From the IMG/VR virus record IMGVR_UViG_3300028610_001120, positions 1-47,363 of that record: a stretch of DNA of 47,363 nt. One strand, 5' to 3'. The stretch is from a virus. The notes beneath the pieces were generated by a model. The model searched no databases. It saw only the letters and a program-made list of their open reading frames with translations, and was not told the origin of the DNA. The translations under genes were made by a program, and so were the position numbers. Of this stretch, positions 1 to 47,363 are shown in pieces. How positions within the stretch are numbered: position 1 is the stretch's first letter; every line of letters starts with the position of its first letter.

Positions 1-566
1 CCAACGCGATCACCAGCTACGACACGCTGTGCTCGGCAAGCGGCACGGTGCAGGGCTTGGCTACGGGTTCGTATGTCAACTACGCCTCGCGCGGCATCTC
101 GCTGCGCGGCACAGCCCCGGCTTCGCGCACGTTCGCCTCGGGCTCGTTCGCCGCGCAGGGCATCCCCAACATGAGAACGTGTTACAACAACGCCTCCGAG
201 GGGACGATCCAGCCGACCGTGATCGTGGTTCCGTATCTGGTTCACGAGTATTACGAGGGAGCATTGCAGCCGCAGGAGCGTTTCGCGGGTGCAGTGAATG
301 TCGCCGACGCTTCGTTTGGAGCGATGGCGTTCCGCACGACCCCTGTGGTCGCATCGCCCAACACGCCGGCTGGCTACATGAACATGATCCGGGTCGGCGA
401 CGACGGCTTCCAGGTCAAGATTCTCGATGGCTTCGACTTCAACTTCGCGCCGTTCAAGGCTGGCAGCAACCAGGAGACGCACGTTTCTGAGTTGCAGTGG
501 AAGGGCCAGGCAATTTTGAACAACCGCACATACGGTTGCAACAAGCTGACCGGGATCACCGCGTAG
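1..566 (+). CDS. Major capsid protein, C-terminal part (5' end missing)
   Basis: The reading frame is open from base 3 to the TAG at 564-566 and has no start in the window, giving about 187 residues. It is the likely continuation of the capsid gene that starts at 46900 and is cut at the other end of the window: the strand is the same, the order terminase-portal-scaffold-capsid is completed by joining the ends, and neither fragment is whole. The protein is rich in Gly, Ala, Phe and Asn with no charged or coiled-coil runs, as expected of a shell protein. Its C-terminal part ends GCNKLTGITA. The function rests on context and on the N-terminal half. The missing middle cannot be sized from this sequence. 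Confidence 0.7.
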   Translation, partial: NAITSYDTLCSASGTVQGLATGSYVNYASRGISLRGTAPASRTFASGSFAAQGIPNMRTCYNNASEGTIQPTVIVVPYLVHEYYEGALQPQERFAGAVNVADASFGAMAFRTTPVVASPNTPAGYMNMIRVGDDGFQVKILDGFDFNFAPFKAGSNQETHVSELQWKGQAILNNRTYGCNKLTGITA

Positions 567-666: not shown

Positions 667-1413
667 ATGACTGGACCCAGACCGATTCTGTACAACGGCT
701 TGGCGCAAGAACAGGGGATTTGGGAGACGAGAACAGATCCCACGGTCGATGTCGGCACGCGCGGAATGCTCTCCGATGGCCGCGTGTTCCATTACGCGCG
801 GAACAACTCGGCGACGAATATCACCATCGGCAAGGTGCTGACGGCCGAAGTGGCGTCTACCGACATGGATGACATGGTAACTACTGCGGCCGGAATCGGC
901 GCCACGGCCATTACCGTGACGTCGGCTGGCTCGACGACTTGGCTTGCGAACGAACTCGCCGAGGGCTTCTGGTGCATGAACTCTGGCACGACCGGAAACG
1001 GGATCGCGTACAAGATCAAGTCCAACCTCGCGACGGACGCTACGTCAGCGTACGTCGTCAACCTGTACGACCCGCTAATGATAGCACTCACCGGGACCGT
1101 GCGGTCGCACGTCGTCAAGAACATCTGGATGGACCCGGTTGCCGCGCCTACGTCAGCCTGGGGCGTCGCGGCTGGTGTGAACCCGGTTGCAGTCCCCGCT
1201 GGTGACTCAAACGCCGTGTACTACTGGGCCCAGACATGGGGCGCCTGCTCTGTTCTCGCTGGCGAGGGCACTGGCGTTGGTGTCGGGCTGATGAACGACA
1301 ACGCCGAGGGTCGCACCGTTACCGCGGGAGCCGCGGTTGTGGTGGTCGCGCAGCAGTATTCGCTTGGCGTCGATGGCGATCACGTCATGGCGTACCTGCG
1401 CGTCGCACCGTAG
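667..1413 (+). CDS. Virion structural protein, paralog copy 1
   Basis: 248 residues directly after the capsid gene. It is the first of three related genes (667, 2114, 2918). Shared blocks are an N-terminal GTRGMLSDGRVFHYAR and, near residues 172-195, PVAVPAGDSNAVYYWAQTWG, both seen with substitutions in the other copies. The composition (many Gly, Ala, Thr, Val, few charges) fits a beta-rich decoration or head-surface protein. The start ATG is preceded by AAGGAG. Position next to the capsid suggests head decoration or head fibre, but no named family is recognised with certainty. Confidence 0.65.
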   Translation: MTGPRPILYNGLAQEQGIWETRTDPTVDVGTRGMLSDGRVFHYARNNSATNITIGKVLTAEVASTDMDDMVTTAAGIGATAITVTSAGSTTWLANELAEGFWCMNSGTTGNGIAYKIKSNLATDATSAYVVNLYDPLMIALTGTVRSHVVKNIWMDPVAAPTSAWGVAAGVNPVAVPAGDSNAVYYWAQTWGACSVLAGEGTGVGVGLMNDNAEGRTVTAGAAVVVVAQQYSLGVDGDHVMAYLRVAP

Positions 1414-1429
1414 ACGCAACAACGACGTA

Positions 1430-1457
1430 GAGGGGCGGGTCGTTTGGCTCGCCCCTC
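1430..1457 (+). terminator. Stem-loop between structural copy 1 and the sulfotransferase gene
   Basis: GAGGGGCG (1430-1437) pairs perfectly with CGCCCCTC (1450-1457) around a 12-base loop, 16 bases after the stop of the 667 gene. No U-tract follows, so termination would be partial or factor-dependent. It could lower expression of the sulfotransferase gene relative to the capsid genes. Confidence 0.45.
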
Positions 1458-1469
1458 GATCGGAGCAGC

Positions 1470-2108
1470 GTGTCTAAGCATAACCGGAAACTGCTGGCCC
1501 TCGCAGTCCCGCGCAGTGGCACGAAGTTCATGTCGAAGGTCTTTCGGACTAGCGGCGTGCGGGCTGGGCACGAGAATATCCAATCCGGTGGAACGGTGGG
1601 GATGTTCTTCGCCGCTGAGGACTGCTGGTATCCGGGGACGCACTGGGTAGGAGAGGACGAGCAGAGGCAAAGACGCAGCGACTTTGAGTTCGAGCAGGTT
1701 TGGCACTTTGTTCGCGACCCCCTGAAGGTGGTTGCCTCGCTAGCCTCTTCGGCTTTCGCACAGTACATCTGGTGCTGGCAAGAAAGGCACACGGGGATTT
1801 CGTGCGGGCTGTACCCAAAGACGCTGCGCGCGATGCTGTTTTGGGTTGCGTGGAACGAGTTGATCGAAAAGAACAACCCGGACTTTTTCTTCCGCATCGA
1901 AGACATCGACGCGGCGTGGCCGGAAATCTGCGAGCGGCTTGGGATCGAAGGCAAGCCGGAGGTTCCGCCGTATCCGCGCAATTACGGAACCGTGTACACG
2001 GGGCAGCAGGCCGTTGTCCCAATGACCTGGGACGAAATGAAGTCGATCGACAACGAAACGTACCTGCGCGTCCGCGAGATGGCTGCGCGTTACGGATATG
2101 AGGAGTAA
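1470..2108 (+). CDS. PAPS-dependent sulfotransferase-like protein
   Basis: 212 residues, GTG start with a short GGAG upstream. The N-terminus carries the P-loop that binds the 5'-phosphosulfate end of PAPS, LAVPRSGTKF (PRSGT at residues 14-18). Around residues 79-91 it has HFVRDPLKVVASL, which matches the 3'-phosphate-binding motif (Arg82, Ser90) of the sulfotransferase superfamily. Such enzymes move sulfate from PAPS to a hydroxyl or amine on a sugar, lipid or protein. It sits between two paralogous structural genes, so the target may be a virion protein glycan or a host surface glycan. The length fits a compact bacterial sulfotransferase. Substrate and activity are inferred; an inactive or nucleotide-binding relative cannot be excluded. 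Confidence 0.72.
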   Translation: MSKHNRKLLALAVPRSGTKFMSKVFRTSGVRAGHENIQSGGTVGMFFAAEDCWYPGTHWVGEDEQRQRRSDFEFEQVWHFVRDPLKVVASLASSAFAQYIWCWQERHTGISCGLYPKTLRAMLFWVAWNELIEKNNPDFFFRIEDIDAAWPEICERLGIEGKPEVPPYPRNYGTVYTGQQAVVPMTWDEMKSIDNETYLRVREMAARYGYEE

Positions 2109-2113
2109 CGAAT

Positions 2114-2896
2114 ATGAGTAGCAGATTGCGGCCCTACCTCACGAATGGGCGCCAGTCGGATCAATCGATTTTTCAAGTCGCACAGACCAGCGCAGCCGAC
2201 TACATTGGCGGCGCCCACCGGGTAGGCACGCGGGGCGTGCTAGAGGACGGCCGCGTGTTTTACTACGCACGCAGCACGGGCGCGGCCATCGTCGCGGGCA
2301 ACTGGCTCATCATGCCCGTGCAAGACACCGACTGGGACGATATTGATATTGCTACAGACCTCGGTGGACAAACCACGGTGACACCCACTCAGGGCGGATC
2401 GGCAACCGCGGTTGCGGGCGAGTTCGTTGGCGGGACGGTTTGTATCAACGCGGGCACCGCGGGTTCTGGCCCGGGTATTATCCTGACAATCGCCGAACAT
2501 GCCGCATGGGGCGCGACCACCGCGCTCCCGCTCACGCTGGACGGGCCGCTTCCGGTCACGCTCAATGCTGACGTGAAATGCACGGTCACTAAGAACCCCT
2601 GGGCCGACGTGGTGATCCAACCCACCGGGCAGGACCAGTTCTGTTGCGGCGTTGCACCGATTGCCGTGGCCGCGGGCACTACCAACCCGCAGTGGTTCTG
2701 GTGCCAGACGTGGGGCGTGGCTTCCGCAGAGCACGACCTAACTACTGCCGTTGGCAGTTGCGTGATGGCCGGCGATACCACGACCGGGCAGGCCCAGGTT
2801 CTCGACGGCTATTTCGAGCAGCGGACCGGCCAGTCGCTTTGGACCGTAACCACCGCTGCGGATTCCTACGCCACGTTCTTGACCATCGCGCCGTAG
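2114..2896 (+). CDS. Virion structural protein, paralog copy 2
   Basis: 260 residues, ATG preceded by AGGAGT that overlaps the end of the sulfotransferase gene, so the two are probably co-translated. It aligns by eye with copy 1 through GTRGVLEDGRVFYYAR near residue 39 and PIAVAAGTTNPQWFWCQTWG near residues 180-199. It has more cysteines than copy 1. The role is probably the same as copy 1, on the capsid surface or at the head vertex, inferred from position and paralogy. Confidence 0.62.
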   Translation: MSSRLRPYLTNGRQSDQSIFQVAQTSAADYIGGAHRVGTRGVLEDGRVFYYARSTGAAIVAGNWLIMPVQDTDWDDIDIATDLGGQTTVTPTQGGSATAVAGEFVGGTVCINAGTAGSGPGIILTIAEHAAWGATTALPLTLDGPLPVTLNADVKCTVTKNPWADVVIQPTGQDQFCCGVAPIAVAAGTTNPQWFWCQTWGVASAEHDLTTAVGSCVMAGDTTTGQAQVLDGYFEQRTGQSLWTVTTAADSYATFLTIAP

Positions 2897-2917: not shown

Positions 2918-3742
2918 ATGGGAAAACCGAACCTATTCGGTGGCGGGAGTTCCATCTACGACACGCAGGAGGTCTACACGGCGTCAGGGCTCCAGCCGGG
3001 GACGGTGGGTTTCCTGGGCGGTCGCTCCTACGTCTGGTGCAGCCACACCGGGTCGTCTGCGCTCACGCGCGGCGAGCCGCTGGCTTCCGCCCCAATGAAC
3101 CGCACCACGCAGTCGCTCGACATCACGACCGCCGGGCTGGCGATCGGGCAAACCTTGATCCGCGGCATCACCGCAGGAGGCTCGGCTATCGCCGCCAACG
3201 CTTTCAATGATGGCTACATGGCCGTCGTGGACGGGGGCGGCGAGGGGAACATCTACGAAATCGAGCGGAGTTCGGCGTTTACGGCCGCGACCGCAGACGG
3301 CGAGATCGTGCTCAGAGACGCGGTGGTCGTTGCCAGCGACGCCGGCACGCAGGTCACGCTGCTCCAGAACAAGTACGTCGACCCGATCCAGAGCTATTCG
3401 TTCGCCGCCCATTCGGTGCTTGAGGGCAACGCATTCGTCGGCGTGCCGAACGTCGATGTCCCAGCAGGAGACTCGACCGCGCAGTATTTCTGGGCGCAGC
3501 GCGCGGGCTATTGCCCTGTGTTCGTCAGTGGCGCGGCGCGCAAGGGCACCGCGGTCAAGATGTCGGTTGACGTCTCTGGGAGGCTCGAAGCGCTGACCGC
3601 AGACGTCGAGGTCGCCGAGTCGCTCTCTGGCGGCAGCGTGACCGTCGTTCCGTTCGAGACAACGCAGGTCGTTGGCGTGATGGTCACAGACGCCATCGAC
3701 GGAGAGGTGCAAATCGTCGACTTGCAAAACACGGTCGTCTGA
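2918..3742 (+). CDS. Virion structural protein, paralog copy 3
   Basis: 274 residues, ATG preceded by AAGGAG. It is the most divergent of the three related copies: the N-terminal block becomes GTVGFLGGRSYVWCSHTG and the later block PNVDVPAGDSTAQYFWAQ. Glycine-rich with a C-terminal acidic beta-like tail. Three tandem copies with high divergence point to old duplication and functional split, for example head decoration at different symmetry sites. No catalytic motif is seen. Confidence 0.6.
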   Translation: MGKPNLFGGGSSIYDTQEVYTASGLQPGTVGFLGGRSYVWCSHTGSSALTRGEPLASAPMNRTTQSLDITTAGLAIGQTLIRGITAGGSAIAANAFNDGYMAVVDGGGEGNIYEIERSSAFTAATADGEIVLRDAVVVASDAGTQVTLLQNKYVDPIQSYSFAAHSVLEGNAFVGVPNVDVPAGDSTAQYFWAQRAGYCPVFVSGAARKGTAVKMSVDVSGRLEALTADVEVAESLSGGSVTVVPFETTQVVGVMVTDAIDGEVQIVDLQNTVV

Positions 3743-3802: not shown

Positions 3803-4756
3803 ATGAGTGCCGCACCCGCTGGATTCCCACAGGTCGGGCAACCCGACCCCTTTTCAACCGCAGCCCAAGCCATTCTCGTCAAGGAGAGGGGGCAGATCAT
3901 TCCCGGGTCTTACGTTGCGAACCCGCACCGCAACCCCGATTTGGTGGTGACGCGCGACGGCCTACCCGTGCTGGGAGCGAACAAGGAGCCGTTCACGATT
4001 TCCCAGGTAGCACCCGAGCGCCGCTGGGCGGTGCTGGACACTGGCGAGTTGATGAGCGAGGAGCCGTACAAGGCCAAGGCGAAGGACAACCACCTCGAGC
4101 TTTTCGCGCTGCTCCGGGCTACTGACCCAGACATCGTATTCAAGGGCAACCTCGATCTCCTGCCCATCAGGGACGCGGCAAACTACGTCGCCTGGCGGGT
4201 GGACCCTGAAAACCCCGCGAAGTTGCTGGAAATCGGCTTCGATCCCAACGCCGTCGGCGGCAAGGCCGAAAAACTCTATGACCACGAGGGTGAGGGCATC
4301 GGGGGCACCCGGATGGACACCCTCTGCCAGTCGTATGCCGACAAGAAGGGCCGCGCGAAGATGACGGCTGAGGAGGTCGCCGAGGTCGAGAACCACCTGG
4401 GCGTTTCGTCCAGCGGCGGCGGCAACGAAATCGCCATCAAGCTAGAAGCGCTGACCGAGTTGCACGCCGAGGGGTTGCTCTCCGCCACGGACTACGCGAA
4501 GAAAGTCTCGCAACTCGCTGGGGCCGGGAGCGCCGCGGCCGTCGAGCCGGAACCTGACGGTGACGATGCCCCGACGGAAACCGAGCCGCCCTCCGCCACC
4601 GCAGGCGACCCGGCCCCACCCGAGCGCGAAGAGGGCGCAACGCTCTGCGGCAAGCCGGGCCTGAACCCCAAGAAGGGCATCCCCGCGCACGAGCGGCGCT
4701 GTAAGGAGTGCCGCGCGCTCAACGGGCTGGAGCCCTTTGTGGCAAAGAGGAAGTAA
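3803..4756 (+). CDS. Unrecognised late protein with a C-terminal zinc-knuckle-like tail
   Basis: 317 residues, ATG with a GGAGA site. The first 170 residues are mixed alpha/beta. Residues about 215-240 read LEALTELHAEGLLSATDYAKK, similar to a SHOCT-type short helical oligomerisation motif. A Pro/Glu/Asp-rich linker follows, and the end carries CGK near residue 285 and RCKECRAL near residue 300, possibly a metal-binding site. It lies between the structural paralogs and the tail adaptor, with no gap before the latter (stop 4756, next ATG 4757). A head-completion or assembly role is possible; I do not recognise the family. Confidence 0.5.
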   Translation: MSAAPAGFPQVGQPDPFSTAAQAILVKERGQIIPGSYVANPHRNPDLVVTRDGLPVLGANKEPFTISQVAPERRWAVLDTGELMSEEPYKAKAKDNHLELFALLRATDPDIVFKGNLDLLPIRDAANYVAWRVDPENPAKLLEIGFDPNAVGGKAEKLYDHEGEGIGGTRMDTLCQSYADKKGRAKMTAEEVAEVENHLGVSSSGGGNEIAIKLEALTELHAEGLLSATDYAKKVSQLAGAGSAAAVEPEPDGDDAPTETEPPSATAGDPAPPEREEGATLCGKPGLNPKKGIPAHERRCKECRALNGLEPFVAKRK

Positions 4757-5851
4757 ATGGCGCTGCTCCAGATGATTAACGCGGTGCGGGGGAAGTTGCG
4801 CGAAGAGAGAATCGACTTGATTTCCGCAGACGACCAACTCACCGAGGAGATCATCGGCCTCCTAAACGACGCGGGCTCGGCCGTTCTGGAGGGCAATGAC
4901 TGGGACTTCGACATTCACCACGACGGGCGGCTGTTCTACCCGACGAGCCAGTCAGGGACGTATCTGGGGTTTGTGGCCCAAAAGCTTCCGTTGAACGCAA
5001 GCGCCGCGAGGCTGTTTTATTCCGCCGATGCGGGCTCTGGGGAAGTTTTTGAAGACGACGACGCGATAGACCTCGCCGGGTTCCGGTGCTCCGGCAACCG
5101 AGCACGGGCGCGGCTGTTGGTCACGGACTCGTCGAAGCCGAACACGTCGTGGATCATCACCTCTATAGGCAAGGGGGCCGCCCAACTCGACGTCACGATC
5201 TCGGGCAACTTCTTTGTCGATGGCGTCGGTGACAGCGCCGCCGTCTTCGCGTGGGAAACCTACGTCAATGAAGTGGTCCTCCCCTCCACAGTCAAAGACG
5301 TCCTGTCGGTGAGAAACGAAGAGGAGCCGGTTCGGCTGGAGTTCGTCGAGCGGGAGATGCAGTTCGACCAGTGGGTGCCGAGAACGACGGACAGCCGCGG
5401 CGACCGGCCTGAAGTCGTGATGGTCGGCGGGACCATTACGAGCACCGCGAGAACGTCCAGCACGGCGTGGGACTCTATCTCTAACGCAAACGCCGTGACT
5501 GGGATCGGTTGCACAATCTGGCCGATTCCCAACGCCGACGTCCATCTCGGGTACAGCTACCGCGTCCAGCACGCCGACCTGTCTTTGGCGACCGACGAGT
5601 GGCCGGGCGTGCCGAACGACATCATCCACGCCATCGAGTGGCTCGCGTACCAGTTCGCGCTGGACTCTGGTATGCAGAACGACCCCGAGGCCGCCAAGCG
5701 TGCCGAGCGGCAGGTAGAAAAGCGTATCGCCCGCGCGCTGAACAAGCAGTCGCGGCAACCCAACCGGCGCCGCATCCCCCGCGCGTTTGGCGACCGACCC
5801 CACGGCGACCTGCGCCGCCGCTGGGCGTCGCAGACCATCTCGGCGCCCTGA
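4757..5851 (+). CDS. Putative head-tail adaptor (tail tubular protein A-like)
   Basis: 364 residues. The N-terminal helices (NAVRGKLREERIDLISADDQ, then a leucine-rich helix) and the later PNDIIHAIEWLAYQFALDSG followed by a basic Arg/Gln-rich helix match the general build of podovirus head-tail adaptors such as T7 gp11. It is followed with a TGATG overlap by the large 5851 gene, the usual adaptor-nozzle order. It would form the ring below the portal. The assignment rests on order and helical pattern, not on a diagnostic motif. Confidence 0.5.
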   Translation: MALLQMINAVRGKLREERIDLISADDQLTEEIIGLLNDAGSAVLEGNDWDFDIHHDGRLFYPTSQSGTYLGFVAQKLPLNASAARLFYSADAGSGEVFEDDDAIDLAGFRCSGNRARARLLVTDSSKPNTSWIITSIGKGAAQLDVTISGNFFVDGVGDSAAVFAWETYVNEVVLPSTVKDVLSVRNEEEPVRLEFVEREMQFDQWVPRTTDSRGDRPEVVMVGGTITSTARTSSTAWDSISNANAVTGIGCTIWPIPNADVHLGYSYRVQHADLSLATDEWPGVPNDIIHAIEWLAYQFALDSGMQNDPEAAKRAERQVEKRIARALNKQSRQPNRRRIPRAFGDRPHGDLRRRWASQTISAP

Positions 5852-7515
5852 TGGGTCGCTACCAACCGTTCGCGATCACCCGCTTTGGTGGCCTGAACCA
5901 AAACGAGAACCCCCACGCGCTCGCGCCGGGCGATCTGGTGGAGGCGCGAAACATCGTCCACAAGGGCGATTCGATCGGCACCCGGCCGGGGCTCAGGCTG
6001 GAGGCATCCGGCAAGCAATACGAGAACGCGACAACCGGCGGCAACCCGATCCAGGGCCTATTCGAGCACCGCGAGGGCGTCGACGCCGGGAGACACCTAC
6101 TCGCCGTGGGCTACGACGGCGTTGGGCAGGCCGTGTTCTACAACGACGCGGCCCTGCTCCCAGACCTAGCAACGATCACGGGTGGGCAGAACAACATCTG
6201 GACATTTGCGTCGCACAACAACAACACCTACGCGGCGGGCGGCCTGCAAGGGACGGACGATTTCTGGTACACCGATGGCGTCGTCGGCACGGGCGCCACA
6301 GCCATCGCGGCGGTGGACTCCGGCACAAACGCGCTCCTGCCGAAATACGTGTTCGCGTGGCGCAACTACCTTTTCCTCGGCGGCCTGAACCCGGCCACGT
6401 CGCTTCCCGACAACAACGCCTCGACCGTCCGGTTCTGCGACTTTGGCACCGACCCCACCGTTGCGGCCAACTGGAAGGTCGGCAACACCATAGGGTACAC
6501 CGCTTACGGCAAGAGCCATAACACCGGGCTCGCGGGCTTCCGCGACAACACCGGGGACTGGCTGCTCCTGCTCTACAACGACCACATCCATGTGGTCAAG
6601 CTCGACCCGACGTCTGGGTTCAACGTACCGTTTTTCGTGAACGACAAGATTTCCAACGGCTGCGTGGGGCAGCGGGCCTACGTCGACCTCGGGCTGGATT
6701 CCGGCGATGCGATCTACATGAGCGAGCAGGGCATCCACACGATCCGGCAGAGCCAGCAATTCGGGTCGAAGACAGAGGCGTTCATCTCGTGGAAGATCCG
6801 GCCGTTCTTTAACACGCTGAACCGCTCACGGCTGAAGTACACCGTCGGAGAATACGATCGACGTAACGGCCGCGTGCTGTACGCCGTCTCGACGGGCTCC
6901 AACACGGCGCACGACGCGATCCTCTGTCTCGACGTGGCGGGCGATGAAGAGATCACCGCCAAAAACGCGCGCTGGTCGATCTGGTATCTCGCGGGCGGCA
7001 AGAAGGTCAACGAACTTCTGTACGCGCGAGACGAAGATGACGTCTGGCGAATGTACGCCGGCACGACGGACGGAGAGGTCGGGTACTTCGACGATGACGC
7101 ATGGCTCGACCTCGACGGCGTTGCCAGCCCGTCGTCGTACAAGAGCGAGTTCCAAACGGCCCATAACGCGCACGGGTCGATGAGCACGACGAAGGGCCTG
7201 GGTGACGTCCTGGTCACGGTGGGGCCCGCCGGCACGTTCGAGCCCTCCCTGCGCGCCCGCTTTGATTACGACAGAAAAATATCTAAGGCATATCCGATCA
7301 CCATGCCATCTTCGAGGGGCGGGCTGTGGGGGACGATGATTTGGGGCAGTGATGTTTGGGGCACCGCAGACCCGATTCGAGACGCGAAGATTTACGCGCA
7401 GGGCTCCGGGCGCACGCTGGGCTTTTCCATTGACCACCAAGGCGATCGGTGGTTCGTAAGCTCGATTGCTTACCAACTCCGGGGCCTTGGTGAAGACACG
7501 GGAGACACGGGATAG
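5851..7515 (+). CDS. Putative tail nozzle / tubular tail protein B-like
   Basis: 554 residues starting at ATG 5851, which overlaps the adaptor stop (TGATG). The N-terminus has FGGLNQNENPHALAPGDLVE, a pattern I associate with podovirus tail-hub and nozzle proteins, then many Gly/Asp beta repeats and a central stretch with FNVPFFVNDKISNGC. No transmembrane segment or coiled coil. Expected place: the distal tail tube, below the adaptor. A stabilisation-protein or hub role is the main alternative. The start was set at the coupled ATG and not at longer upstream extensions that lie inside the adaptor gene. Confidence 0.52.
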   Translation: MGRYQPFAITRFGGLNQNENPHALAPGDLVEARNIVHKGDSIGTRPGLRLEASGKQYENATTGGNPIQGLFEHREGVDAGRHLLAVGYDGVGQAVFYNDAALLPDLATITGGQNNIWTFASHNNNTYAAGGLQGTDDFWYTDGVVGTGATAIAAVDSGTNALLPKYVFAWRNYLFLGGLNPATSLPDNNASTVRFCDFGTDPTVAANWKVGNTIGYTAYGKSHNTGLAGFRDNTGDWLLLLYNDHIHVVKLDPTSGFNVPFFVNDKISNGCVGQRAYVDLGLDSGDAIYMSEQGIHTIRQSQQFGSKTEAFISWKIRPFFNTLNRSRLKYTVGEYDRRNGRVLYAVSTGSNTAHDAILCLDVAGDEEITAKNARWSIWYLAGGKKVNELLYARDEDDVWRMYAGTTDGEVGYFDDDAWLDLDGVASPSSYKSEFQTAHNAHGSMSTTKGLGDVLVTVGPAGTFEPSLRARFDYDRKISKAYPITMPSSRGGLWGTMIWGSDVWGTADPIRDAKIYAQGSGRTLGFSIDHQGDRWFVSSIAYQLRGLGEDTGDTG

Positions 7516-8915
7516 TGAGACGAAAACTACTACTTGCTTTGGCGCTGGTTCTGTGCGCGTCAGTGACGCACGCGGGAACGGTTACGCGTGGCATCAAGGC
7601 GGGCTCTGGCACGACAGCCTTCGTGGATGGCGTGGCCGCGTCGGCAGCAGAGGTCAACACCGACTTCGACACGCTCTACTCCGAAATTAACGGCCAACTC
7701 GACGATGCCAACATCGCTTCCGACGCCGCGATTGTTCTGACGAAGGTGGCCCAGACCGCAGCGGGGCTCGACGCCGACATCGTTGACGACTACTCAGCAA
7801 CCGAGGGTGAGCAGGCCACCGTTTCCGACCCCGGCACGAGCGAAGCTACCACGCTCGCTACGAACCTCCAGATCGAACTCGCGCAGATCCGGTTCAAACT
7901 CGAAGAACTCACGGTAGGCAGAAGCGCGACTCTGGTCGCATCTTCCACCGGCACAGACACAGACGCAAGCTGGATCGACGGCCCCCACCGCCCCGGCAAC
8001 CTGATCTACAACGGCGGGTTCAACGTGCTTGACACGCTGGCTACCGGCGCGGACGGCGACGGGTGGACCCGCGTTGAAACGCCCACCACCCTCGAAGTGA
8101 TCGCGCTTGTGGAGTCCGAGGGCAACGGTGACGGAAACGCGCTGCGGGTCATCGACACCGCAGACGCAAACTCCGGCGTTGAACAGGTGCTCGACGGACT
8201 CAAAGCAAGCGTGGTCTACGAGTTGATTGCGCTTGTGCAGGACGACGTTGGGACGTGCAGCGTCGGGACCAGCGGCGCAGACACCGACATCACGATTGTA
8301 TCAGACGACGGCGGGACGTGGCAGGTTCTCGCGGGAACCTTCGAGACAGACTCTACCCCGACAGACGTGGACATTGAACTGCTGGCCGTTACCGCCAACG
8401 ATGATTGCAGCTTCAAGTTTGTCGGCGTGTACGAGATCAACACGGACCCGCTGCCGAGAGGCGGCAAGGTGCATTGCTACGACTCTATAACCACGGCCAC
8501 AGAGGATCACTTCGCGTCTGGGACTTTCACGGACGCTGGTGTGACGTGTGCGGTGACGGTTCCCGCGCCCGGGTACATGATAACGGTGCGCGGCAGAATC
8601 AGCGCAGAAAGCGGCTCGGCAGCCAGCATGTCGTTCCACGCTAGGCTTAGAGAAAACTGCGGCGCTGCGGCTACCAAAGACGGGACCACCGAGTCGGTAG
8701 AGGCAGAGAATTCGGGCGGCAGTAGCGAGGCGGATATTGTGACCGCGGACCTGTTCTGGGTAAACGACGCACCCGCGGCGGGTACGACATGCACTTACAC
8801 CCTAGAGGGCATGGGGGACAACGACGCTTTCCACAGAAACGAGTTTGGAGCCGACGTGGATAGTGACGTTGTTCCGATCACGTGGGTCGACGTGATTATG
8901 GAGCCGACGGGATGA
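7515..8915 (+). CDS. Exported structural or fibre-like protein with Sec signal peptide
   Basis: 466 residues, GTG start overlapping the previous TAG (TAGTG). The first 20 residues are a textbook Sec signal: two Arg and a Lys, the hydrophobic core LLLALALVLC, then a THA cleavage site. The mature part is rich in Thr, Asp, Ala and Gly, with few Lys, a helical stretch about 75-125 and then beta-type sequence resembling a carbohydrate-binding sandwich (LIYNGGFNVLDT onwards). Cysteines are spread through the C-terminal half as in exported proteins. It sits inside the tail-gene run, so a tail or fibre role is likely, yet a signal peptide is unexpected in a virion protein assembled in the cytoplasm. 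Confidence 0.6.
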   Translation: MRRKLLLALALVLCASVTHAGTVTRGIKAGSGTTAFVDGVAASAAEVNTDFDTLYSEINGQLDDANIASDAAIVLTKVAQTAAGLDADIVDDYSATEGEQATVSDPGTSEATTLATNLQIELAQIRFKLEELTVGRSATLVASSTGTDTDASWIDGPHRPGNLIYNGGFNVLDTLATGADGDGWTRVETPTTLEVIALVESEGNGDGNALRVIDTADANSGVEQVLDGLKASVVYELIALVQDDVGTCSVGTSGADTDITIVSDDGGTWQVLAGTFETDSTPTDVDIELLAVTANDDCSFKFVGVYEINTDPLPRGGKVHCYDSITTATEDHFASGTFTDAGVTCAVTVPAPGYMITVRGRISAESGSAASMSFHARLRENCGAAATKDGTTESVEAENSGGSSEADIVTADLFWVNDAPAAGTTCTYTLEGMGDNDAFHRNEFGADVDSDVVPITWVDVIMEPTG

Positions 8916-8931
8916 GCGAGGGAGAAGAGTA

Positions 8932-10023
8932 ATGGCAGGAGCAGCAATAGCCGGTGGCCTAGCCAGTTCGGCCGGCGGGATCTTGGGCGGGCTTTTGGCA
9001 AAAACCCCCTCCCCGAGCGTAAGCGCGTCGAACCTGGACACCTCTCCCGGCTTGAAGATCGCCGAGTTTATGAACCTGATCGAGCAGGGCATCTACGATC
9101 CGACGTCGTTGATGCAGGGTTCGCCGATCAACATCGCGATAGGGGAAATCAGTTCATCGCAGACGCTTTCCAACAAGCGGAAGCGGAAAATTATGCGCGA
9201 CCTCCAGGTTTACCTCGACTGGTCTAGGGCGGGTCGGCCGGACAGGGGGGCTAGTTTCGACGCTGTCTTCACAGGCCCCGAGGCGCCGAACCTGAGCTCT
9301 GGGCAGATAAACCGGCTCGAGAACATGATCCTCCAGTTTTCGGGCTACAACAGCATGAACGAACTTCTCGCCGCTGACGCTGCATACCAAGAGCGACTCG
9401 GCCCGATGCTGCAATCCGCCGAAGAGGCGTCGCGCGGGAATTTCCAAGCCAAGCTCAACATGCAGACGCAGATTAGGGATCTACTCGCCGACCTCCCCGA
9501 CGCCTCTGCGTCTGGGATTGCGGGCCTGCGCGCCGAAGAGAAGAGCCGGCTCCTGCGCGAGATGAACCGCGGCGTCGACGAGCAGCGCAGCGACCTGCTG
9601 GAAGTGGCGAACGCGGGCGGCTTCAACCCCGGGCGTCCATTGGGCGACCTAGAAGAGTTCCGCGCACGCTCCACCGAGGACGCCGACCTTATCGCGCTCA
9701 ACCGTGCGCTCAGCCTCATCGGCGGCCAACAGGGCGTCGCGCAGACCAACCTCGGGCTGCTGCTCAGCGGGAAGTCGGACACGTTCAACACGTCGCTACA
9801 ACTCGCCCAGGCGGACCAGGGGTTCCAGGGCGGCTCGGCGATCCAGGGCGTATCGAACAACCTGCTCTCGCAGGGGGTCGCCAACGCGGGCGTCGATGTT
9901 GCCAACGCGATCAGCGACTACCAGACGCTTCAGGCGATGAACAATCGCGGCGGCTCGGGGGCCGTTCCGGGCTTCAACCAGTATGGTGGTGTGGGCCAGA
10001 ATACATACGGTCCAAATCAATAA
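8932..10023 (+). CDS. Putative internal virion protein
   Basis: 363 residues, ATG with GGAGAAGAG upstream. The N-terminus is a Gly/Ala-rich hydrophobic stretch (AAIAGGLASSAGGILGGLLA) that could insert in a membrane. A long charged helical region follows, with Gln/Asn/Gly at the end. This pattern and the place directly before two more helical proteins match the ejection proteins of podoviruses, which leave the head with the DNA and form a conduit. The family is not named with certainty. Confidence 0.5.
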   Translation: MAGAAIAGGLASSAGGILGGLLAKTPSPSVSASNLDTSPGLKIAEFMNLIEQGIYDPTSLMQGSPINIAIGEISSSQTLSNKRKRKIMRDLQVYLDWSRAGRPDRGASFDAVFTGPEAPNLSSGQINRLENMILQFSGYNSMNELLAADAAYQERLGPMLQSAEEASRGNFQAKLNMQTQIRDLLADLPDASASGIAGLRAEEKSRLLREMNRGVDEQRSDLLEVANAGGFNPGRPLGDLEEFRARSTEDADLIALNRALSLIGGQQGVAQTNLGLLLSGKSDTFNTSLQLAQADQGFQGGSAIQGVSNNLLSQGVANAGVDVANAISDYQTLQAMNNRGGSGAVPGFNQYGGVGQNTYGPNQ

Positions 10024-46899: not shown

Positions 46900-47279
46900 A
46901 TGGGCATTGCCCAACAGACCATGACCCAGACAGACCTGCGGATCTACGCCGCGACGCGCGACCACGTGCTCAAGACGGTGCGCGACCACGTTTTCAGCCA
47001 CGACCCGCTGACCGCCATCATGCTGGGCAGGGATCTCGGCAGTTTCGGCGGCGTGAAGATGCGCGGCGCCGGCAAGTCGACCCAGGTGGGTGGCGCGTCT
47101 GTGAAGATTCGCGCACGACTCGGGAAGCACACCGGATTCCAGTGGATGGCCGGACCATTCGCCCAACATTCGGTGTCGCCGGATGACAACCTTCGCCTCC
47201 TGCAAGCCAACTGGATTCACGCCAGTGGCGCGCTGGTCCTTTCGGACTACGACCGGGGCGTCAATAGGGGCGAAGAGGC
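46900..47279 (+). CDS. Major capsid protein, N-terminal part (3' end missing)
   Basis: ATG 46900 after CGGAGGAACC. Residues 1-126: helical start (TQTDLRIYAATRDHVLKTV), then GGVKMRGAGKSTQVGGASVK and NWIHASGALVLSDYDRGVN RGEE, which is the pattern of HK97-fold podovirus capsid proteins (a GG-loop, then a strand with SxxD). The frame runs into the foldback at 47280 and must be considered broken there; the C-terminal part is at 1-566. Confidence 0.72.
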
Positions 47280-47360
47280 GATGATTGATTTCGTTGCCTC
47301 TTCGCCCCTATTGACGCCCCGGTCGTAGTCCGAAAGGACCAGCGCGCCACTGGCGTGAAT
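47215..47360. repeat. Perfect 65-base inverted repeat at the window end (likely artefact)
   Basis: 47215-47279 is the exact reverse complement of 47296-47360, with a 16-base loop. It lies within the capsid coding region and destroys it, so a chimeric read or an assembler turn-back is much more likely than a biological hairpin end. Confidence 0.85.
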
Positions 47361-47363
47361 AGG

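Follow-up and report, generated by a model that had tools for sequence, protein, structure and literature searches.

Why would a phage carry a sulfotransferase gene among the genes for its head, and what would the enzyme modify? The question arises from a viral stretch of 47,363 nucleotides of environmental DNA (IMG/VR record IMGVR_UViG_3300028610_001120, analysed over its full length and called the window here). A first-pass annotation, made from the letters and their open reading frames, had placed a sulfotransferase between two virion paralogues and suggested sulfation of virion proteins, of a decoration glycan or of a host surface polymer.

The gene and its setting in the head module

The open reading frame at 1470–2108 is a genuine gene. 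Its codon-use score is +22, while all overlapping reading frames score negative, and its codon use matches that of the other genes of the phage. A Shine-Dalgarno-like GGAG lies ahead of it at 1462–1465, and only 5 bases separate its stop codon from the start of the second paralogue. The coordinates of the gene, its motifs and its neighbors are collected in Table 1.

Both parts of the setting described by the first-pass annotation were confirmed. The genes around the sulfotransferase lie between a major capsid gene and an SU10-type adaptor gene, and the proteins encoded on either side of it are true paralogues, with 39% identity and an E-value of 3e-38. The paralogue family corresponds to no Pfam family and to one weak PHROG of unknown function. 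A profile search with it found 34 viral contigs, about half of which have a recognisable capsid homologue, placed just upstream of the paralogue. By the same profile, 31 of the 34 contigs have only one gene for this head protein behind the capsid gene; the window has three.

Genes for terminase, portal and a protein in scaffold position, together with the start of the capsid gene, are found at the right end of the window, and the remainder of the capsid gene is found at the left end. Because the head genes are split between the ends in this way, we take the contig to be a circularly permuted, near-whole phage genome broken inside the capsid gene. At the right end, the last ~70 bases are the reverse complement of the capsid-gene bases that precede them (region 47212–47363, with arms at about 47212–47279 and 47296–47363). 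This fold-back, which truncates the capsid gene, is probably an amplification or assembly chimera.

The first paralogue and the sulfotransferase gene are separated by a hairpin. After the stop codon of the paralogue, several related phages have comparable G+C-rich hairpins of 9–13 bp, with a loop of 4–5 bases and no long T run; they lie at 5902–5932 in L002 and just after the paralogue in L038, L039, L040 and L054. We rejected the idea that the hairpin is an element specific to the sulfotransferase gene, since phages that have no such gene carry one behind the paralogue too. It is possibly an attenuator or a stabiliser of the mRNA end that sets capsid-level against downstream expression. A scan for promoters and terminators returned no promoter, and its terminator-like sites did not exceed those of shuffled sequences.

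Table 1. Positions in the window of the sulfotransferase gene, its motifs and the neighboring head-module features.
Feature	Position	Strand	Remarks
Major capsid protein, C-terminal part	3–566	+	PHROG major head protein; N-terminal part begins at 46900
Paralogue 1, small head protein	667–1413	+	Directly behind the capsid gene; probably decoration-type, judging by position
G+C-rich hairpin, 12-bp	1430–1457	+	Between paralogue 1 and the sulfotransferase gene
Sulfotransferase gene	1470–2108	+	212 aa, GTG start
5'-phosphosulfate-binding loop AVPRSGTK, residues 12–19	1503–1526	+	R15, G17 and T18 invariant in 15 sequences
H34-E35	1569–1574	+	Probable catalytic base; invariant in 15 sequences
3'-phosphate-binding motif R82-D-P......S90	1713–1739	+	R82, P84 and S90 invariant
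R142-I-E144 of FFRIED	1893–1901	+	R and E invariant; counterpart of RYED in cellular Sulfotransfer_3 proteins
Paralogue 2	2114–2896	+	Right behind the sulfotransferase stop codon
Paralogue 3, more distant	2918–3742	+	
SU10-type head-tail adaptor	4757–5851	+	Marks the end of the head module

Motifs, predicted fold and family

Sulfotransferases require a basic residue in the 5'-phosphosulfate-binding loop, a serine in the 3'-phosphate-binding motif and a histidine or glutamate between the two (PMC6637879, PMC11625862). The PRSGT P-loop and the RDPLKVVAS motif that had been noticed earlier are both present, as AVPRSGTK at residues 12–19 and RDPLKVVAS at residues 82–90. We aligned the protein with 14 other viral sequences that are 18–61% identical to it; a weak match in phage C48C1 gave the alignment through which the more distant viral relatives (18–25% identical) were reached. 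Fourteen columns are invariant in the 15 sequences, including R15, G17, T18, H34, E35, G41, R82, P84, S90, R142 and E144. The basic loop residue is thus R15, accompanied in 15 of 15 sequences by G17 and T18, and the serine is S90, which follows the invariant R82. Between the two motifs stand both H34 and E35, either of which could be the base.

A gene among structural genes might encode a protein that has kept the sulfotransferase fold, lost catalysis and become a PAP/PAPS-binding or structural head protein. However, the expected PAPS-binding and catalytic residues are invariant even though the distant family members are only 18–25% identical to this protein, and we consider this explanation very improbable. 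We predict, with considerable confidence, that the enzyme is truly catalytic.

No model in Pfam, PHROG or NCBIfam passes its cut-off or reaches a significant E-value with this protein, and for that reason we place it in a divergent branch. The Pfam family Sulfotransfer_3 (PF13469) scores 15.8 bits against a gathering cut-off of 27 (E 0.018), colinear over residues 11–152. In hhalign comparisons with 11 cellular Sulfotransfer_3 proteins, the local P-value was a marginal 0.002 (0.3 for the reversed profile), with the alignment in register on the 3'-phosphate-binding motif. The bacterial and phage members of that family share with our protein the predicted fold and the order of motifs (an RSGT loop, a conserved Glu about 20 residues on, RDP....S and R-Y/I-E-D), but the protein from the window is short in addition to its low score and marginal hhalign relation.

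PDB sequences searched with phmmer and with profiles gave chance matches only. With tblastn, nothing was found in phages at E ≤ 0.01, and one plasmid match was at chance level. Genome contigs scanned with the protein gave no match, and scanning them with the distant family gave two metagenome-assembled contigs only. The distant relatives are in unrelated phages, and most lie outside head clusters. A sulfotransferase of this phage type occurs in L019 and L020, two contigs assigned to a Bifidobacterium breve MAG and a Kapaibacterium MAG. L019, where fibre-like and glycosyltransferase-like genes are also present, resembles a phage contig that was binned wrongly.

AlphaFold2 run with the 15-row alignment gave a model with a mean pLDDT of 79.4 and a pTM of 0.79. 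Models varied in mean pLDDT from 79 to 48, and a run from two sequences only gave 43. In the model, a helix (residues 18–27) directly follows the 5'-phosphosulfate-binding loop, and a strand (78–81) followed by a helix (84–92) lies at the 3'-phosphate-binding motif. The predicted structure has the sulfotransferase fold. Its best 50 PDB rows in VIA-align are all PAPS sulfotransferases, with Z-scores of 8.2–11.9 over 155–181 aligned residues. These include the sulfotransferases of CurM (11.9) and olefin synthase (11.4), TPST2 (11.2), TPST1 (11.1) and NDST1 (8.6), as well as SULTs. Foldseek ranked the CurM sulfotransferase first in the PDB (E 1.3e-3), and its viral matches to the model include several annotated sulfotransferases.

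Among the Foldseek matches with weak E-values are also GTPases and adenylate kinases, which could point to a kinase or NTPase of another P-loop family. We give that reading next to no credence: the loop has no Walker A lysine, the top 50 VIA-align rows are all sulfotransferases, and both the 3'-phosphate motif and the R-x-E motif are present in order. Structure prediction had been put forward as a check on the original assignment, with homology to a different P-loop family as the outcome that would count against it; no such family is among the best 50 rows. With four ordered groups of invariant motifs and these structural matches, the enzyme class named in the first-pass annotation stands, and we assign it with high confidence. 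The product is very probably a PAPS-dependent sulfotransferase.

Among the known enzymes, the CurM and olefin-synthase domains (4gbm, 4gox) are the best fold matches, but they are parts of polyketide-type biosynthetic enzymes and no such pathway was seen here. TPST1 and TPST2 are also alike in fold, and VPRSGTT and VRCGEE of TPST2 resemble VPRSGT and VRxGxE of the viral protein. When we aligned TPST2 VPRSGTT...VRCGEE by hand with VPRSGTK...VRAGHE, a single gap was needed in the helix between, and E35 fell on the second Glu of the CGEE motif, which we take to be the catalytic base of TPST2. Unlike the TPSTs, the viral protein has no N-terminal Golgi-type membrane anchor, as no more than about 14 residues precede the arginine of its P-loop. 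Membership of the tyrosylprotein sulfotransferases was rejected on the lack of this type II anchor. Tyrosine specificity is not indicated either, because the TPST Z-scores are tied with that of the CurM sulfotransferase.

Conservation and the slot behind the capsid gene

The one close relative of the enzyme in the viral collection, about 60–61% identical, belongs to a second, diverged phage (L002). On a tree, the two share one long branch with 100/100 support. The gene order in L002 is capsid, one paralogue, sulfotransferase, a homologue of the gene at 3803–4756 and the SU10 adaptor, so that the sulfotransferase lies at the same place. The enzyme is among the best-conserved proteins common to both phages: its identity is ~60%, while most neighbors have 30–47%. 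The individual values are 39–47% (paralogues), 36% and 35% (the two genes that come next), about 41% (portal), 47% (capsid N-terminus) and 66% (capsid core). Between the two sulfotransferase genes dN is 0.33 and dS is about 1.9 (saturated), which indicates purifying selection. The L002 capsid gene needs a change of frame in its last third, at about 4857–4860; this is probably a sequencing or assembly error.

The description of the gene as inserted agrees with what is found in the nearest phages that have the same head module. Those with recognisable terminase, portal and capsid (L038, L039, L040 and L042) have no sulfotransferase at this slot. A profile of the sulfotransferase family matched only L037 (the same contig as L002) among the 34 paralogue contigs, and only two phages have the gene in the head slot.

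Five other contigs carry Pfam-supported tailoring enzymes no more than about 2.6 kb behind the paralogue. These are a GT2 glycosyltransferase with a methyltransferase (L048), a GT2 (L049), a methyltransferase whose front half is GT-like (L044, which also has a cytidylyltransferase, and L055) and a GNAT protein with a GlmS-type protein (L066). Among 32 of the paralogue records, GT2 exceeded its cut-off in 3 contigs (two with a copy within about 1.5 kb behind the paralogue, the third with one about 5 kb downstream) and Methyltransf_11 did so in 4, directly in the slot in 2 of them; the numbers are small and the slot was defined after the data had been seen. The GlmS-type gene of L066, at 7945–9471, is of the glucosamine-6-phosphate synthase type, with a GATase and two SIS domains, and lies behind the head genes beside the GNAT acetyltransferase.

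Because related phages hold glycosyl-, methyl- and acetyltransferase genes at the same slot, the neighborhood supports a role in surface tailoring, and we read the sulfotransferase gene as an accessory one for tailoring surfaces, carried in the late head operon. The neighborhood does not separate the virion from the host surface as the target.

Candidate acceptors and known phage sulfotransferases

The protein would be a cytoplasmic, PAPS-dependent enzyme of a divergent viral branch. Its PAPS would come from the host, because we found no APS kinase gene in the window or in L002. PAPS would be bound by R15, the arginine of the P-loop, together with the R82/S90 site, E35 (or H34) would activate the hydroxyl of the acceptor, and the sulfate would be moved to it in one step. 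We see the gene as accessory cargo of the head operon, occupying the slot behind the capsid and small-head-protein genes and presumably expressed at the same time as the head genes. During assembly, the enzyme would then sulfate a head or decoration protein, or a glycan on it. This could change the charge, adsorption or recognition of the virion to the benefit of the phage.

The most likely target, in what is close to an even call, is the virion or a virion-linked glycan. Two families of glycosyltransferases were searched for in the window and in L002 and neither was found, so a virion glycan made by the phage is not evident. The mycobacteriophage glycosyltransferases, which glycosylate capsid and tail tube (PMC12363180), are a precedent for virion modification in the way that they work, although they are of another enzyme class and transfer another group. 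More tentatively, some tailed phages may have an exchangeable slot behind the capsid and decoration genes for glycosyl-, methyl-, acetyl- and sulfotransferases that decorate the virion, with the phage's own capsid or decoration proteins being sulfated here. If so, this would be, to our knowledge, the first sulfated virion of a tailed phage.

The main rival is that the enzyme acts in the cytoplasm on a host envelope glycan or glycolipid precursor, with the altered surface excluding rival phages or aiding release. Bacterial enzymes of the Sulfotransfer_3 family, for example NodH, use glycolipids as substrates (PMC11625862), and the distant relatives in L010, L017 and L019 lie near genes that, judged by eye, resemble glycosyltransferases or methyltransferases. 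The aromatic residues conserved between our protein and that of L002 (W53, Y54, W59, W101, W103, W125 and W128) would also suit sugar stacking. We nevertheless think this less likely, since the position in the head operon and the close coupling to the next structural gene suggest expression during virion assembly.

A small molecule or nucleic acid as acceptor, for detoxification, signalling or base modification, is less probable still. Many sulfotransferases have acceptors of the former kind, and phages have been proposed to use sulfotransferases for modifying nucleic acids (Iyer 2013, as cited in PMC10829341), but the gene lies away from the replication and recombination genes of the phage at about 22–32 kb.

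The first-pass annotation had called a sulfotransferase in this setting little described. That holds for the setting, as we found no report, among the open-licence papers searched, of a sulfotransferase in a head operon or head gene cluster. It does not hold for phage sulfotransferases in general, which several papers have reported as auxiliary genes without a clear function (PMC10580990, PMC8290583, PMC10829341; PHROG 3347). Their function is an acknowledged open question (PMC10580990). The auxiliary enzymes of OM43 phages and cyanophages (PHROG 3347) resemble ours in phage origin, sulfotransferase signature and unknown function (PMC10580990), but those of OM43 phages carry a Sulfotransfer_3 domain, whereas ours falls below that model and lies in a head operon. 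A sulfotransferase in such an operon, conserved above most of its neighbors, offers a test of whether phages sulfate the particles they make. Judging by the slot in related phages, virions may be chemically tailored more often than annotations show, because current family models miss this sulfotransferase branch.

Three of the distant relatives are fusions in which the sulfotransferase domain is preceded by an N-terminal region that bears an HPDK motif resembling a J-domain (L004 3697–4875, L011 4553–5719 and L019 3074–4258). Going by this motif, these could possibly be chaperone-linked sulfotransferases.
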